Part shown: positions 1,701 to 28,439 of the stretch, one piece after another | How the letters are laid out: the number at the start of each line of letters is the position of its first letter | How positions within the stretch are numbered: the stretch's first letter is position 1 | IMG/VR virus record: IMGVR_UViG_3300032092_000172 | Span: 1-29,486 of that record | Reading direction: 5' to 3' (one strand) | DNA length: 29,486 nt | Origin: a virus | The notes under the pieces: generated by a model | The model's input: the letters and a program-made list of their open reading frames with translations, nothing else | Database searches by the model: none | What the model was told of the DNA's origin: nothing | Translations under genes and position numbers: made by a program

Positions 1701-4074
1701 CGTTATCGGCGCGCTCCGCGTTTCCCTCGGTCTGGATTCGGCGTCTTTCGAAGGCGGCGTGACCGGCGCGCAACGGACCATGAAAAAGTTCGAGCGCGAC
1801 ATGAACAAGATGTCGGCCAACCTCCAGGGGATCGGCGGGGCCTTGACCCTCGGCCTGACCGCTCCCCTGGCGGCGGTCGGCGGCTCGATGGCCAAGCTGG
1901 CGATTGACGCCGAAGAAATGAACAGCGCCTTTGCGGTGTCGTTTGGCAAGATGGCCAAGGAAACCGAGGCTTGGGCCGAAACGACCGGCGACGCGCTGGG
2001 CCGTTCGACGCAAGAGCTTCAGAAAGGCGCGCTGGCCTTTAATGGCCTGTTCAAGGCGGGCGGCCCAGCAACGGCCCAGGCCACGGCGATGTCGAAGCAG
2101 TTCGCAATCTTGGCCCAGGATCTCTCCAGCTTCTTCAACGTCTCGGGCGATGAGGCCCTGCAAAGCCTGATCTCTGGCCTGTCGGGCGAAGCCGAGCCCC
2201 TGCGGAAGTTCAACGTCTTCCTGACCGAGTCAGCCGTCCGCCTGAAGGCCGTCGAGATGGGCCTTGGCACGATGAAGGGCGAACTGTCAGAAACGGCAAA
2301 GATCCAGGCCCGGGCCGCGCTGATCATGAAGGCGACGACCGAGGCCCAGGGCGATGTCGCGCGAACGGCGGACAGCACGGCGAACCAGATCAGGAAGTTG
2401 CAATCGGAATGGGCGGAGATGGCCGTCACGCTTGGGACGGTCCTGACGCCTCTGTTGAAGCCAGTCGTCACGGGCCTGACGGACATGCTGAAGTCTTTCA
2501 GCCAGCTGTCGCCGGAAATGCAGAAATTTACCCTGATCGGCGCTGGAGTCGCGGCGGCCATTGGCCCGATCCTGATCGGCGCTGGGGCGCTGGTGTCTGC
2601 TCTGGGAACCCTCAGCGCAGCCTTGGTGACGGCTGGCGTATCGGCCACCCTCATGACCGGGCCAATCGGGCTGGCAGCCGCCGCTGTCGCGGCCCTGACC
2701 GTGGGGCTGGGCTATTACCTTCTCACCAACAATCAAGCCGGAATTGCTGCCGCCGCCAACCGACAGGCCCATGAAAAACTCGACCCGATCCTGAAGACGG
2801 TTCGCGAGAGCATGGCCCTTGCGGCGGGCGCATCCGGCCAGCTGCGCGACCAACACCTTCGCACGGCCCATGCGGCCTGGGCGGCCGGCGAGGCAGAGCT
2901 GGAATCAGCGAAGAAGACCCTTGCCGCAGCCCGCGCACGACTTGCCGCGACCCAGACTAACGAAGACGCCCTGATGCGAATGGGCGTCGGCGGCATGCCT
3001 GGATATGCCAGTGGCATGGAAGAACAGCGGGTCTCCAAGGCTGCGGCGGCGCTAAAGGCGGCCGAGGACGTGCTGATTTCAAACGGCTTCGGTCGCCGCC
3101 GGCCGCGCGGTCAGGGCTTTATCGTCATCAAGCCGTCAGAGGCCAAGGCGGAGGCGGACGCCATCGCAGGGCTGACCGGCGGCGTGACCGCCCTTGGGGC
3201 TGCGGCTCAAGGGGCCGGGGCCCGTGCTGCCAAGGCCGAGAAGCCCGTCCGCGACTTCGCTGCCGAACTCAAATCCCTGAACGAAAGCCTGATGGGGCCA
3301 GCCGAGCGCGCGGCCTATGACCAGGCGCAACAGTTCAAGCTGCTGTCCGACGCCCTGGAGGCGGGCAAGATCAACGCCGAGGGCCTGGCCAAGGCCCTGC
3401 GGCAGATCGATGCGAACGCCGCTCGCAACGACTTCGCCGGCACGGTCAAGGCCGGCCCTGACCAGAACCCCCAGCTGGTCGACATGAACCTCCCGACCGC
3501 CACCTTCGGCGGGGCCATCATGAGCGACGAAGCGGCCAAGGCCCTGCGCGAACAGATGGCCGGCACCTTCCGGGGCGCGCTGGACAGCCTGAAAAGCGGC
3601 GGGACCAAGGGCCTGTTCCAGTGGATGGCCGACCAGCTTTCCGACCGGCTGATGGACCGCCTGGCCGACATCCTGACCAACCTGATGGATCAGCTGCTAA
3701 AGGCCATGTCCAGCAGCGGCGGCGGGAGTGGCATTTTCTCAACCATCGGCGCCGCCCTAACCTCGATGTTCGGCGGCGGATCGACTCCCGGCTTCGCGAC
3801 CGGCGGCTCTTTCACGGTCGGCGGCAGTGGCGGCATCGACAGCCAGCTGATGCAGTTCAGAGCGACGCCCGGCGAGATGGTCAACATCCGCCACGGCAAT
3901 GACAACGGCGGCGGCGGGGCGGTGGTCTTCGATCTGCGCGGCGCGGTGATGACCTCCGATCTGCTCAACCAGATGAACGCCATCAGCGCCCGGACGGGTG
4001 GTCAGGTCTATGGCCAGATCAAGTCCGAACAGGCCCGCGCCATGAAGGCCCAGCAATACAGGGTTGCCCGATGA
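1693..4074 (+). CDS. Phage tail tape measure protein
   Basis: A 793-residue protein, the longest in the window, with a Shine-Dalgarno AAAGGAG just before its ATG. The N terminus (LRVSLGLDSASFEGGVTGAQ, then a coiled-coil-like helix with M/K repeats) is typical of tape measures. Hydrophobic stretches near residues 50-70 and 280-345 are candidate membrane-inserting segments used during DNA delivery. An Ala-rich helical middle follows, then a C terminus with FATGGSFTVGGSGGIDSQL and 'ATPGEMV', a well-known lambda gpH-type ending. It sets tail length, is bound by the chaperones encoded just upstream, and sits inside the tube. If the usual rise of about 1.5 angstrom per residue applies, the tail would be roughly 120 nm (inference). 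Confidence 0.93.
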   Translation: MNSVIGALRVSLGLDSASFEGGVTGAQRTMKKFERDMNKMSANLQGIGGALTLGLTAPLAAVGGSMAKLAIDAEEMNSAFAVSFGKMAKETEAWAETTGDALGRSTQELQKGALAFNGLFKAGGPATAQATAMSKQFAILAQDLSSFFNVSGDEALQSLISGLSGEAEPLRKFNVFLTESAVRLKAVEMGLGTMKGELSETAKIQARAALIMKATTEAQGDVARTADSTANQIRKLQSEWAEMAVTLGTVLTPLLKPVVTGLTDMLKSFSQLSPEMQKFTLIGAGVAAAIGPILIGAGALVSALGTLSAALVTAGVSATLMTGPIGLAAAAVAALTVGLGYYLLTNNQAGIAAAANRQAHEKLDPILKTVRESMALAAGASGQLRDQHLRTAHAAWAAGEAELESAKKTLAAARARLAATQTNEDALMRMGVGGMPGYASGMEEQRVSKAAAALKAAEDVLISNGFGRRRPRGQGFIVIKPSEAKAEADAIAGLTGGVTALGAAAQGAGARAAKAEKPVRDFAAELKSLNESLMGPAERAAYDQAQQFKLLSDALEAGKINAEGLAKALRQIDANAARNDFAGTVKAGPDQNPQLVDMNLPTATFGGAIMSDEAAKALREQMAGTFRGALDSLKSGGTKGLFQWMADQLSDRLMDRLADILTNLMDQLLKAMSSSGGGSGIFSTIGAALTSMFGGGSTPGFATGGSFTVGGSGGIDSQLMQFRATPGEMVNIRHGNDNGGGGAVVFDLRGAVMTSDLLNQMNAISARTGGQVYGQIKSEQARAMKAQQYRVAR

Positions 4075-24750: not shown

Positions 24751-25097
24751 AGGTTCTCAGCCTTTGGAAAGGCGAGATGCTCGCCCCGCCTCGCACCATG
24801 AACCAGATCGGCCAGGAGGTCGCAGAGCGGCACAAGCTGACCGTGGCGGACCTGAAGCGCCAGCCGGGAACACACCGCCAGACGCCGAGGGCCATCGCCT
24901 ATCCGCGTCAGGAGGCCATGTGGCTGATGGCATCGGAAACCAACGCTGACGGCTCGGCGCGCTGGTCCTACGCCATGATCGGCGGCTGGTTCGGCATGGA
25001 TCATACCAGCGTCTACACCGGCTCCCGCTCTCATGCCCGGCGCAACGGCCTGAGCCTGCTGCCGCGCATCATCGGCGGATGGAAGGTGGCGGCATGA
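24747..25097 (+). CDS. Stand-alone DnaA domain-IV-like protein
   Basis: 116 residues. Segments 'VAERHKLTVADLKRQPGTHR', 'TPRAIAYPRQEAMWLMASET', 'WSYAMIGGWFGMDHTSVYTG' and 'SRSHARRNG' reproduce the DnaA C-terminal DNA-binding domain (HTH with the DHT-S-V box), with no AAA+ domain. It could bind DnaA-box-like sites in the host or phage origin, and competes with or assists DnaA. It lies directly upstream of the O-like initiator. Confidence 0.82.
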   Translation: MKVLSLWKGEMLAPPRTMNQIGQEVAERHKLTVADLKRQPGTHRQTPRAIAYPRQEAMWLMASETNADGSARWSYAMIGGWFGMDHTSVYTGSRSHARRNGLSLLPRIIGGWKVAA

Positions 25098-25852
25098 GCG
25101 TTCAGCAGATCACCCTTGCCCTGGCCCTTCGTAACGTCTCGCAGGCCGAAAAGCTGCTGCTGATCGTGCTGGCCAACTATGCCGACGAAGACGGGCGCTG
25201 CTGGCCCTCCCAGAAGCGCCTGGGCGAAGACGCGGGCATGTCTGACAGGTCGGTCAGGACCGCACTTGTGAAGCTGGAAGAGGCCGGCCTGATCGTCCGC
25301 GAAAGGCGCAATCGCCGGGACGGTTCACGCGGAACCGACATGATCGAATTGCACCTTGAGCGGGCAAGCGATCAGCGGAAAAATCTTCCAGCGGAAAAAT
25401 CTTCCAGCGGAAAATCCTGCACTGATTACCGGAAAAATCTGCACGAATTACCGGAAAATATTTCCGGACTCACTACGTTTGAACCAACCATAGAACCGTC
25501 AATAGAACCGTCAGAGAAAGCGCGCGCGCTCGATGCCGAGTTTGACGTGTTCTGGTCAGCCTATCCGTCGAAGGTGGACAAGGCGAAGGCCCGGAAGACT
25601 TTCCCGAAGGCCAGAAGGCGCGCCAGCCTGGAGCGGATGCTTGAGGCGATCGAATACGCCCGACAGCGAAGTCCGATGTGGCGCGACAACGTGTTTTGCA
25701 ACCCGACAACTTGGCTGAACAACGAAAGATGGAACGATGAATTCCCAGCGAACGAGCCTTTCAGCGCCAAGGGCCGCCAACGTCTCGACAACTTTGGACG
25801 GGCTTTCGCAGGAGCTTCGGCTGCTTTTGACGCACCAGACTTCGACCGCTGA
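25094..25852 (+). CDS. Replication initiator (lambda O-like, winged helix)
   Basis: 252 residues from ATG 25094 overlapping the previous stop; an upstream start inside the DnaA-like gene is less likely. N-terminal winged helix (residues 15-72: VSQAEKLLLIVLANYADEDG, RCWPSQKRLGEDAGMSDRSV, 'LEEAGLIVRERR') binds origin iterons in related proteins. A polar linker (residues 90-145) overlies the DNA repeats, and the C-terminal module (FDVFWSAYPSKVDKAKARK, 'FCNPTTWLNNERW') matches helicase-recruiting domains. As in lambda, origin and initiator coincide. Confidence 0.78.
   Translation: MSVQQITLALALRNVSQAEKLLLIVLANYADEDGRCWPSQKRLGEDAGMSDRSVRTALVKLEEAGLIVRERRNRRDGSRGTDMIELHLERASDQRKNLPAEKSSSGKSCTDYRKNLHELPENISGLTTFEPTIEPSIEPSEKARALDAEFDVFWSAYPSKVDKAKARKTFPKARRRASLERMLEAIEYARQRSPMWRDNVFCNPTTWLNNERWNDEFPANEPFSAKGRQRLDNFGRAFAGASAAFDAPDFDR
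25374..25467. repeat. Iteron-like repeats, candidate phage replication origin
   Basis: Five copies of a CGGAAAA-type core: two tandem AGCGGAAAAATCTTCC (25374-25389, 25390-25405; period 16), then AGCGGAAAATCCTGCA (25406), ACCGGAAAAATCTGCA (25428) and ACCGGAAAATATTTCC (25450), period 22. They lie in the middle of the O-like gene, as the lambda ori iterons do. Confidence 0.75.
25490..25513. repeat. Tandem 12-bp repeat beside the candidate origin
   Basis: ATAGAACCGTCA occurs twice back to back (25490-25501 and 25502-25513), directly after the iteron block. It could be part of the origin or a simple coding repeat (EPxI). Confidence 0.7.
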
Positions 25853-26306
25853 CGCCGTGGCCGGGATCGTCGCCAACCCCGCCCTGCACTCGGAGGTCAT
25901 CGCAGCCCTGCCGGCGCTGATGGCGGATCGGGACCGGGCGCTGGCCAAGACCGGGACCGACGACCTTCAGCGCATCCTTGCCAAGGCGCTGGTCATCTAT
26001 CCCGTTCCTGACCGCACCCCGGAGGAATGGAAGACCTGGTGGCGGGTCTATCACGATGTCCTGGCGGACGTTCCCCGGCGAGCGGTGGCCCAGGCGCTGG
26101 ATCAGTGGATCCGATCACCGGCGGGATTCTTTCCGAAACCGGGCGAACTGCGCGATCTGGCCCTGAAAATCCCCTGTCCCGAATATGCCATCGCATACCG
26201 CGCCAAGCTGGCTGCTGAGGCTCCCAAGGCCGTTTCCATGCTGGATGCGGCGGAACGTCGGGCGCAGATCGCGGAGGCTCTGGCGGGCCTGAGGAAGGCC
26301 CTGTGA
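25737..26306 (+). CDS. Putative helicase-loader/replication protein (P-like position)
   Basis: 189 residues from ATG 25737 if correct, overlapping the O-like gene by 116 nt; TTG 25827 or GTG 25857 are shorter alternatives. The core 'LVIYPVPDRTPEEWKTWWRV', 'QALDQWIRSPAGFFPKPGEL' resembles N-terminal parts of phage helicase loaders and DnaT-like proteins. Position after an O-like gene supports it. No AAA+ motif is present, so it would be a non-ATPase adaptor. Confidence 0.5.
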   Translation: MNSQRTSLSAPRAANVSTTLDGLSQELRLLLTHQTSTADAVAGIVANPALHSEVIAALPALMADRDRALAKTGTDDLQRILAKALVIYPVPDRTPEEWKTWWRVYHDVLADVPRRAVAQALDQWIRSPAGFFPKPGELRDLALKIPCPEYAIAYRAKLAAEAPKAVSMLDAAERRAQIAEALAGLRKAL

Positions 26307-26563
26307 CCCGCACCGCCCAAGTCGCCCAGACCATTGCCAACCTCGCCGGGACTGCTACCGGATTCGCAGACGGGGCCGTTCGCTACGCCGCTGTCATCAA
26401 GGCCGACAGCCCGCCCGACGAGATCCGCGATCTGCTGACCCGGTTCTTTGAGGCCGAGGCCCAGCTTCACGATCTGGCCGAGGCCATGCGCCGACTGGCG
26501 CCGAACGCAGCCAAGGCCGGGGAAGAGCGCGCCGCCACGATGCGAGAGGGGTTGAAGCTGTGA
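26303..26563 (+). CDS. Small hypothetical protein
   Basis: 86 residues from GTG 26303 overlapping the previous TGA. Helical, with 'TAQVAQTIANLAGTATGFAD' and 'DLLTRFFEAEAQLHDLAEAM'. No family recognised. Stop overlaps the methyltransferase GTG by 4 nt. Confidence 0.52.
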   Translation: MTRTAQVAQTIANLAGTATGFADGAVRYAAVIKADSPPDEIRDLLTRFFEAEAQLHDLAEAMRRLAPNAAKAGEERAATMREGLKL

Positions 26564-27720
26564 GGCTGCTTGACCTGTTTTCCGGTATCGGCGGCTTCAG
26601 CCTCGGCCTGGAGCGGGCCGGGTTTGAGACGGTCGCCTTCTGCGAGATCGACCCCGTTTGCAGGGGATTGCTCGCCCATCATTGGCCCGAGGTGCCATGC
26701 TATGACGACATCACAACTCTCACCGCAGAGCGACTGGCCGCAGACGGTATTGTCGTTGACGCCATGTGCGGCGGCTTCCCCTGCCAGGATTTGTCCTTCG
26801 CCGGAAAGGGCGCCGGGCTTGCCGGGGAACGATCCGGCCTGTGGCGTGAATACGCACGACTCATTCGCGAGCTACGACCCCGCGTCGTCATCGTGGAAAA
26901 TGTCTCAGCGCTCCTTGGTCGAGGACTTGGAGACGTTCTCGGAGACCTGGCCTCGCTCGGGTATGATGCTGTCTGGGAGTGCATTCCAGCAAGTGCCGTT
27001 GGCGCCCCTCACCGCCGCGACCGGCTCTGGATTGTTGCCTACGCCGGAAGCGAGCAACACCAAGGCCGTGGCCCTGCGATCAGGCGGGCGCTCGCCGCGC
27101 AACTATCTGGGGCCGTTGTGGCCGACGCCGCGCAGCTCCCCGAACGAGAACCGGCAGACCAAGCCGACGCCATCGCAACTGGCGGGCAAGCATGGCTGGA
27201 GCCTTGGGGCGGCTGTAACGATGGCCCAGACCAACGCCTTCAAGCTGGGCATGACCCAGAAGCCCAGCCACTCAATCCCGACCCCGACTGCATCCGATCA
27301 CATAGAGCGGGAATGCACATCGACCGAGGCGCTGAACTTCGAAACGAACAAGAGTGTGACTCTGGATCGGTGGGTGAAGATGTGGCCGACGCCGGCAGCG
27401 AGGGACTTTCGCGGAGCCAATGGCAAGCCGTTCAAGGACCGGGGCGGCGGCAAGAAGGGGGAGCAACTTCCGAATGCTGTTCGGCACGACCCGGAGACAC
27501 CGGACGGGGGCCAGCTAAATCCCGAGTGGGTCACTTGGCTCATGGGCTTTCCGCCAGGCTGGACCGAACCCATGAAGGCTGGGAAGCCGAGCCGGAAGAC
27601 ACGCCCCGAGTAGCAACCGGCGTGCCGGCGCGGGCTGCGCGGCTCAAGGGGCTGGGCAATGCGGTCGTGCCGCAGATCCCCGAACTGATCGGACGGGCCA
27701 TCATGGAGGCAATGGCATGA
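26560..27720 (+). CDS. C5 cytosine DNA methyltransferase (Dcm-type)
   Basis: 386 residues from GTG 26560. Motif I DLFSGIGGFSLG (5-16), motif IV GGFPCQDLS with catalytic Cys75, motif VI ENV (113-115), motif VIII RRDRLWIV (152-159), motif X LGNAVVP (365-371): all essential C5-MTase motifs are present in order. The variable target region (about 170-350) is unusually free of hydrophobic core and shares its DNA with a second conserved frame. It methylates cytosine in an unknown target, probably to protect phage DNA from restriction. The stop overlaps the next gene by 4 nt. Confidence 0.9.
   Translation: MRLLDLFSGIGGFSLGLERAGFETVAFCEIDPVCRGLLAHHWPEVPCYDDITTLTAERLAADGIVVDAMCGGFPCQDLSFAGKGAGLAGERSGLWREYARLIRELRPRVVIVENVSALLGRGLGDVLGDLASLGYDAVWECIPASAVGAPHRRDRLWIVAYAGSEQHQGRGPAIRRALAAQLSGAVVADAAQLPEREPADQADAIATGGQAWLEPWGGCNDGPDQRLQAGHDPEAQPLNPDPDCIRSHRAGMHIDRGAELRNEQECDSGSVGEDVADAGSEGLSRSQWQAVQGPGRRQEGGATSECCSARPGDTGRGPAKSRVGHLAHGLSARLDRTHEGWEAEPEDTPRVATGVPARAARLKGLGNAVVPQIPELIGRAIMEAMA
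26702..27613 (+). CDS. Overlapping-frame protein inside the methyltransferase gene (WPTP-repeat family)
   Basis: An open frame of 304 codons from ATG 26702 (earlier TTG at 26570 possible), shifted +1 relative to the methyltransferase and stopping at 27613. The product contains 'SYDPASSSWKMSQRSL', 'FSETWPRSGMM', four P-T-P elements (LPTPEAS, WPTPRSS, IPTPTAS, WPTPAAR at about residues 112, 140, 192 and 228) and 'LNPEWVTWLMGFPPGWTE'. I know this combination from phage proteins annotated as methyltransferase-associated. Coding of both frames is not proven, but motif conservation is unlikely by chance. Confidence 0.55.
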   Translation: MTTSQLSPQSDWPQTVLSLTPCAAASPARICPSPERAPGLPGNDPACGVNTHDSFASYDPASSSWKMSQRSLVEDLETFSETWPRSGMMLSGSAFQQVPLAPLTAATGSGLLPTPEASNTKAVALRSGGRSPRNYLGPLWPTPRSSPNENRQTKPTPSQLAGKHGWSLGAAVTMAQTNAFKLGMTQKPSHSIPTPTASDHIERECTSTEALNFETNKSVTLDRWVKMWPTPAARDFRGANGKPFKDRGGGKKGEQLPNAVRHDPETPDGGQLNPEWVTWLMGFPPGWTEPMKAGKPSRKTRPE

Positions 27721-28439
27721 ACCTGCCCAGAGACATCGAAATTCGCCTCGACAAGGCCGACAAGGCATCCGCCAAGGCCAAGACCGACACCGACCGGGAA
27801 CGGGCTCTGGAGGCCCGGAAATCGGCCCTGGACGAACTCTCCAAGCGAGAAGCCGACCACTGGACCACGAAGGCCATGATCGAGCGCGACAGGCTGGAGC
27901 GGCTGAGAGATGGCGGCCTTGTCGTGGAAGAGCTTGTGACCACGGTTCCGGTCACGAAGGACGGCAACCCCGTTTGGAAGCGCGGTCGGCTGGTCATGAA
28001 ACAGGAGCGGGTCAAGCGGTCGCGGATCACCAACAGCGACGGCCTGGAAACGCTGCTACAGGCCGGAACCATCACCGCCAAGCAGTTTGCCCACGGCATG
28101 ACCTACCGCACCCTCTACGAAGCCGCAGACCACGGACACGGCCTGACCCCGCCACAGATCGGCGCGGCCAGAGGAGGGGCCAAGCGCCAGCCGATCAACG
28201 ACCTAGGCGAGGTGGACTGGGAGGCGCTTGAACGGGCCGTCAAGTCAGCGCACCACCTGTTTAACCTACAGGAAACCGAGCGGGACGTTCTCGCCATCTG
28301 TGGCGCCGAGCCCCTGACAACGCTGCGCCTAGTGGCTGGGGAAGGGCGGACCATCTTCAGCTTGACCGGACGCGGAGGCAGGAGACGGGCCATCAACTTG
28401 ACGAAGGGGCTGTTGAAGGCATTGGATGCGATGGGTTGA
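27717..28439 (+). CDS. Hypothetical protein, candidate late-gene regulator
   Basis: 240 residues, ATG overlapping the methyltransferase stop. N-terminal charged coiled coil (residues 5-60). The middle has 'LVVEELVTTVPVTKDGNPVW' and 'NSDGLETLLQAGTITAKQFA', then 'ERDVLAICGAEPLTTLRLV' and a basic C-terminal helix. The second half resembles DUF6456-like phage/host proteins with an HTH-like arrangement. It precedes a promoter-like region and HNH, the place of Q/RinA-type late activators. Role inferred from context only. Confidence 0.5.
   Translation: MNLPRDIEIRLDKADKASAKAKTDTDRERALEARKSALDELSKREADHWTTKAMIERDRLERLRDGGLVVEELVTTVPVTKDGNPVWKRGRLVMKQERVKRSRITNSDGLETLLQAGTITAKQFAHGMTYRTLYEAADHGHGLTPPQIGAARGGAKRQPINDLGEVDWEALERAVKSAHHLFNLQETERDVLAICGAEPLTTLRLVAGEGRTIFSLTGRGGRRRAINLTKGLLKALDAMG

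Follow-up and report, generated by a model that had tools for sequence, protein, structure and literature searches.

The window, by which we mean the whole stretch of DNA analysed, is an IMG/VR virus record of 29,486 bases, and every position given here is counted along its full length. A gene for a replication initiation protein (25079-25852, phrog_270) precedes a locus in which two reading frames share the same DNA, namely a C5 cytosine methyltransferase frame, here called alpha, and a second open frame at +1 to it, here called beta (Table 1). As an earlier, sequence-only reading had stated, the methyltransferase frame is open from its GTG to its TGA, with the catalytic motifs at the N terminus and motif X at the C terminus. 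In particular, motifs I-VIII fall on residues 1-166 and motif X on residues 361-385; the matches to PF00145 (2.5e-41, confined to residues 2-166) and to TIGR00675 (residues 4-163) both stop at motif VIII, even though alpha ends in a motif X. The structure model of alpha was confident for approximately residues 1-190 and for the motif X helix, and in a Foldseek comparison approximately 170 columns of it matched the large domain of M.HaeIII and M.HhaI. With regard to the features that define a C5 methyltransferase, alpha holds motifs I-VIII, with PCQ, ENV and RxR, plus motif X; the feature absent from the same chain is motif IX, and a motif-IX-like element was found in the +1 frame instead. A two-chain enzyme taken as a whole would still possess this motif.

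The +1 frame is free of stops for 349 codons from 26564. Beta matched PHROG_1008 ('DNA methyltransferase') with 1.3e-29 over residues 24-155, while no Pfam family, no NCBIfam family and no solved structure was matched, and AlphaFold2 returned a poor model of beta alone (pLDDT 57, pTM 0.27). All the elements that had been quoted from this frame by the sequence-only reading (LPTPEAS, WPTPRSS, IPTPTAS, WPTPAAR and LNPEWVTWLMGFPPGWTE) were located in it, and WKMSQRSL...FSETWPRSGMM indeed lies opposite ENV...RRDRLWIV of alpha. When beta was aligned with motif IX of ordinary C5 methyltransferases (RRLTPRECARLMGFPDTF), LNPEWVTWLMGFPPGWTEP gave the best profile match (E 0.0047), with a probability of 7% that is low because the element is short.

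Our best guess for the start of beta is the ATG at 26702, with the GTG at 26846 as the alternative. The evidence on this point is discordant, in that constraint begins near alpha residue 97 and the best ATG preceded by a Shine-Dalgarno-like sequence lies at alpha residue 48. Among 158 loci, 41% harbored an ATG or GTG with such a sequence upstream of the beta core, compared with 21% (sd 2.8%) in codon shuffles, an enrichment in the beta frame which supports internal initiation; a start codon near the core showed just a slight excess (82% versus 76%, sd 2.6%). In six loci (L098, L100, L064, L066, L084, L088), the betas must start near the core because their frame opens just 7-9 codons before it.

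With respect to the surroundings of the locus, the alpha GTG is overlapped by the stop of the preceding ORF (26303-26563) and the alpha stop overlaps the ATG of the next one (27717-28439, 240 aa, without a PHROG match). Since alpha is flanked by such start/stop overlaps at either end, it may be translationally coupled to the neighbouring ORFs.

Table 1. Features of the alpha/beta locus, in positions of the window
Feature	Position	Strand	Evidence or remark
Alpha, C5 cytosine methyltransferase catalytic subunit, GTG start	26560..27720	+	Frame 0, 386 aa; PF00145, TIGR00675, Foldseek
Catalytic Pro-Cys-Gln, motif IV (alpha 74-76)	26779..26787	+	G72, F73, C75 and Q76 invariant in 53 alphas
Glu-Asn-Val, motif VI (alpha 113-115)	26896..26904	+	E113, N114 and V115 invariant in 53 alphas; in the beta frame, part of WKMSQRS
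Alpha residues 200-362, predicted disordered spacer where a recognition domain is expected	27157..27645	+	pLDDT <50 at 200-356 and 358-362
Alpha motif X (RLKGLGNAVVPQIPELIGRAI), downstream of the beta stop	27640..27702	+	High-confidence helix 372-385 in the alpha model
Shine-Dalgarno-like GAGGT, 8 nt 5' of ATG 26702	26689..26693	+	Sequence; enrichment test, 158 loci
Beta, +1-frame ORF, 303 aa from ATG 26702	26702..27613	+	Open-frame test, Shine-Dalgarno-like sequence, PHROG_1008
Conserved beta core, start of beta-frame constraint (approximately alpha residue 97)	26849..27610	+	Alpha silent positions freeze from alpha 97
Beta N-terminal segment (YDPxTSSWKTSQ...FSETWPRSGMM), opposite alpha motifs VI-VIII	26849..27046	+	HMM 119 bits versus <=71 in 100 alpha codon shuffles; window included in the profile
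PTP module 1 (LPTPEASNTKAVALRSGGRSPRNYLGPL)	27035..27118	+	Module cluster C7
PTP module 2 (WPTPRSSPNENRQTKPTPSQLAGKHGWSLGAAV...)	27119..27274	+	Cluster C1: 17 loci, 13 bacterial
PTP module 3 (IPTPTASDHIERECTSTEALNFETNKSVTLDRWVKM)	27275..27382	+	Direct neighbours in L010, L011, L019, L028, L053, L056
PTP module 4 (WPTPAARDFRGANGKPFKDRGGGKKGEQLPNAV...)	27383..27514	+	Direct neighbours in L041, L070, L071, L079-L081
Motif-IX-like element of beta, LNPEWVTWLMGFPPGWTE	27515..27568	+	Profile alignment to RRLTPRECARLMGFPDTF; both frames constrained

Length and constraint of the two frames

As a null for open frames, the synonymous codons of alpha were shuffled, with the protein and the codon usage kept. 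The longest +1 run in the window spans 349 codons against 179 expected (p 0.007), in agreement with the earlier claim of an open frame at 26702-27613 (303 aa and a stop), and the +2 frame was unremarkable (83 codons versus 95 expected). Across 103 loci, a significantly open frame (p<0.05) was found at +1 in 87 and at +2 in 3, and this included loci of 38-47% G+C. Since most of these loci had been retrieved with beta as the query, an unbiased control of ordinary enzymes was added. A control built through the locus L103 gave too few relatives devoid of beta, and therefore PF00145 matches centred on Pseudomonas were employed; this list comprised 38 entries, from which four (L209-L212) were excluded because they are alpha/beta seed loci. 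In none of the remaining 34 ordinary enzymes, which are full-length PF00145 matches drawn for the most part from genomes related to one Pseudomonas genome, was the +1 frame significantly open (p<0.05), and the median +1 run for the whole control list was 72 codons compared to 81 expected. On the basis of the codon shuffles and the ordinary-enzyme controls, a chance ORF was rejected. A long +1 frame (p<0.05) was also present in 10 of 15 PF00145 matches truncated near motif VIII; four truncated matches without one, from genomes of the Pseudomonas relatives (L246, L251, L255, L256), represent a different sort of C5 methyltransferase, either partial or diverged.

Silent sites of alpha provide a test of beta because a change that leaves alpha unaltered hits the second position of a beta codon. 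Codon-position ratios were calculated from disjoint pairs of relatives, with 95% bootstrap intervals. Over alpha residues 97-160, viral loci gave a ratio of third- to first-position differences of 1.59 (1.42-1.82) and bacterial loci one of 1.54 (1.42-1.68), in contrast to 3.52 (2.71-5.05) in the same region of ordinary C5 methyltransferases and to 2.2-2.9 upstream of the conserved part of beta within the same alpha/beta genes. The silent positions of alpha freeze from approximately residue 97, and over LGDLASLG of alpha, which reads FSETWPRSG in beta, differences affect just 4% of third positions but 21% of first positions. Conservation of beta over its whole length was considered and rejected, as alpha residues 47-96 behave as single-coding.

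Further downstream, in the well-aligned blocks of the PTP module region, alpha positions 1, 2 and 3 differ at frequencies of 0.405, 0.163 and 0.161, respectively, which is the pattern of a gene read in the beta frame. Here, dSN (alpha-silent, beta-replacing) was 0.19 and dNS 0.78, indicating that beta is the constrained frame, and both values were nearly unchanged with an alpha-anchored alignment (0.24 and 0.74). Over the last 30 residues of beta, which include motif IX, dSN and dNS were both low (0.30 and 0.33), and both frames are constrained around 'LNPEWVTWLMGFPPGWT'. The substitution patterns show that both frames are read, with the constraint divided by region. The sequence-only reading would have been contradicted by purifying selection in a single frame; instead, alpha dominates over motifs I-VIII, beta dominates over the modules and both are constrained at motif IX.

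The profile of the beta N-terminal segment scored above all 100 shuffles in 67 of 79 bacterial loci outside its training set. Several loci with a diverged segment failed to beat the codon shuffles. Opposite motifs VI-VIII, a second, diverged type of this segment occurs in L001, L060, L077 and L180 (e.g., PLGSLAKMLLESSIW...LTWK in L180); under the main profile, L001 and L180 did not beat their codon shuffles.

Gene layouts and modules among the relatives

A genome scan with beta retrieved 418 stretches encoding relatives from many phyla, of which 80 were kept. In 151 of approximately 180 loci, the beta N terminus and motif IX lie in the +1 frame, nested in an alpha frame that bears motif X. This nesting, along with codon-position constraint in both frames, supports the overprinted gene pair that had been suggested, and homologues with a stop-broken frame, which would have spoken against it, were not the rule, given that the beta frame is generally intact. 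Beta was accompanied by an alpha gene in all classified loci but one, whose contig is cut at the end.

Several variants of this layout were also observed, with motif IX or motif X found in either frame across loci. Motif IX belongs to the catalytic frame mostly in Streptomyces and actinobacteriophage loci, while motifs IX and X are both in the +1 frame in L107, L149, L180 and also L002. The two halves are annotated as nested CDSs, both as methyltransferases, in Leyra, as partly overlapping genes in Andrew and NiebruSaylor, and as tandem genes in Wile, HortumSL17 and McKinley. In a further four loci (L118, at 2658-3623, L176, L177 and L179), alpha ends between motifs VIII and X, beta is intact, and motif X is encoded further downstream by an ORF of its own in the alpha frame; these are either three-piece enzymes or sequencing or assembly errors.

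The catalytic motifs, the PTP modules and motif IX-X are all encoded in one frame in Shauna1, Akhila and the IMG/VR locus L098. The target-recognition position of C5 methyltransferases lies between motifs VIII and IX, and these one-frame relatives place the PTP modules there. They are not simply fused versions, because all three retain, in +1, a short ORF that encodes the beta N-terminal segment. In Mycobacterium phage Shauna1 (L184, 1187-2211), this short ORF carries two modules and the catalytic frame three further ones along with motif IX-X, so that the modules span two frames.

Between 0 and 6 PTP modules were detected per beta, mostly 2-4, with a median length of 36 aa. Modules that resemble one another turn up in varying positions and beside varying neighbours, both in phages and in bacteria, and this recurrence fits shuffled recognition cassettes. 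Single-linkage clustering of the modules chained a group of 103 (C0), which is not one family.

With regard to annotation, the beta frame of Acidovorax phage Alfacinha3 gp46 (L005:2218-3421) is recorded as 'cytosine-specific methyltransferase' and the catalytic alpha frame (2218-3402) is unannotated; in Shinella sp. PSBB067 (NZ_CP069303.1:3214247-3214438), a beta-like match falls where nothing is annotated. When plasmids were searched for an enterobacterial homologue close to M.EcoHK31I, matches came from Shinella, Halotia, Leptospira and Nostoc only.

A proposed two-chain methyltransferase

We consider it very likely that a C5 cytosine DNA methyltransferase made of two chains is encoded here, and the best-supported assignment gives catalysis to alpha and both recognition and motif IX to beta. 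Alpha would bind AdoMet and do the chemistry through motifs I-VIII, with the motif X helix as the closing element, and would hold a disordered stretch in the place of the recognition domain. Translation of beta would begin inside the alpha gene and yield a separate chain, the N-terminal segment of which probably docks on alpha, while its four PTP modules would form the DNA-target-recognition region and its C-terminal part would supply motif IX. The two chains would then come together as a single enzyme for the methylation of phage DNA, most likely as a shield against host restriction; such a protective role appears the likeliest because none of the six neighbouring ORFs tested was recognisable as a restriction enzyme. 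Of the two roles previously offered for beta, the motif-IX-like element and the position of the modules favour that of a target-recognition partner. Counting against the two-chain enzyme are the poor model of beta alone, the shortness of the motif IX match, the discordant evidence on the beta start, the short +1 ORF retained by the one-frame relatives, the loci whose diverged N-terminal segment does not outscore the shuffles, and the prediction that M.EcoHK31I has its recognition domain in the large subunit.

Programmed frameshifting could fuse both frames into a single chain with motifs I-VIII, the modules and motif IX, which would restore the canonical motif order that some relatives carry in one frame. 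We nevertheless deem this improbable because the constrained beta segment overlaps motifs VI-VIII: the constraint starts approximately 60 codons before the end of motif VIII, and a shift near this motif would leave the segment untranslated. Moreover, reaching motif X would take a second shift, as beta terminates ahead of it, tandem and partly overlapping genes with separate annotated starts exist, and Shine-Dalgarno-preceded ATG or GTG codons inside alpha are enriched in the beta frame. Even less probable is the second role that had been offered, in which beta is an unrelated regulator, or an anti-restriction protein, sharing the locus. This would be in line with the missing Pfam, NCBIfam and structural matches; however, the best family, PHROG_1008, is annotated as DNA methyltransferase, the motif-IX-like element and the modules appear in the catalytic frame of relatives, alpha is devoid of motif IX and of a folded recognition domain, and beta goes with an alpha gene almost throughout. 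Finally, it is hardly credible that alpha is the sole gene, with a +1 frame that merely looks open and conserved through alpha conservation and high G+C, for although high G+C lengthens chance ORFs and the conservation of a gene carries over in part to its +1 translation (under the beta N-terminal profile, shuffles of viral loci still had a median score near 50 bits), the +1 runs exceed the shuffles also at 38-47% G+C, most loci outscore every shuffle, the silent positions of LGDLASLG are frozen, and the module region evolves as a beta-frame gene, none of these signals being shown by ordinary enzymes.

Multispecific phage C5 methyltransferases contain several recognition modules, each for one target. 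By extension of the two-chain enzyme, beta might be a cassette-built recognition subunit in which each PTP module of approximately 36 aa has its own target and phages and bacteria alter methylation specificity by module swapping, a reading that we put forward as possible rather than probable. The swapped DNA is also alpha-coding, and swaps would be tolerated because the alpha product there is a disordered spacer that need only stay open to motif X.

Known systems and significance

Two-subunit enzymes of this class are known: M.EcoHK31I is an alpha/beta C5 methyltransferase with the target YGGCCR, and M.AquI, which recognises CYCGRG, consists of two polypeptides. The beta of M.EcoHK31I is translated in a different frame that lies within the gene for alpha, just as the putative second polypeptide of the window is encoded in another frame of the same gene. 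The large subunit of M.EcoHK31I, an enzyme termed 'naturally split' (PMC3439449), comprises motifs I-VIII and X and its small subunit motif IX (PMC3404938), and the window shares this layout, the two being likened by their described motif layout. In contrast, the recognition domain of M.EcoHK31I is predicted in the large subunit (PMC3404938), whereas the modules of the window are coded in the beta frame and the middle of alpha is predicted to be disordered; the pattern of sequence evolution suggests that the recognition modules of the alpha/beta family of the window are read in the beta frame. In M.AquI, motifs I-VIII are on one chain and motifs IX and X on the small subunit (PMC3404938); the distribution of the catalytic motifs and motif IX is as in the window, but motif X of the latter is on alpha, in frame 0 past the beta stop. 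The loci L002, L107, L149 and L180 are nearer to the M.AquI layout than the window is.

Among phages, the Fernvirus pairs of Paenibacillus larvae (e.g., Leyra_61/Leyra_62) are likewise nested CDSs in different frames, both annotated as DNA-cytosine methyltransferase, but they differ in a diverged beta N-terminal segment, two modules and a lower G+C. The actinobacteriophage methylases (Shauna1 gp67, Wile gp75/gp74, Andrew gp43/gp44) share the catalytic domain, the PTP modules and motif IX-X, and are arranged as one ORF or as tandem or partly overlapping genes instead of being fully nested. In ShiLan, a phage methylase gene contains an insertion with an out-of-frame HNH endonuclease (PMC11855218); a protein is thus encoded out of frame within the gene in both cases, but there it is an inserted homing endonuclease, whereas beta of the window is part of the methyltransferase and involves no insertion.

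By its motif layout, the locus in all likelihood belongs to the M.EcoHK31I kind of two-subunit C5 methyltransferase, a kind known before and now found to be widespread in phages and bacteria. The design in which a second chain of a C5 methyltransferase carries motif IX, described in the papers cited here from one enzyme (M.EcoHK31I), appears to define a large family, as beta or module sequences were matched by at least 418 stretches of a single genome collection and by hundreds of records from phages. Beta is often unannotated, called hypothetical or annotated in place of the catalytic frame, so that such enzymes may be taken for truncated ones and their specificity overlooked. The locus is also a well-replicated case of gene overlap, backed by internal as well as external controls, in which constraint passes between the frames along the gene, and its natural unnested relatives offer a route to testing which half carries specificity.
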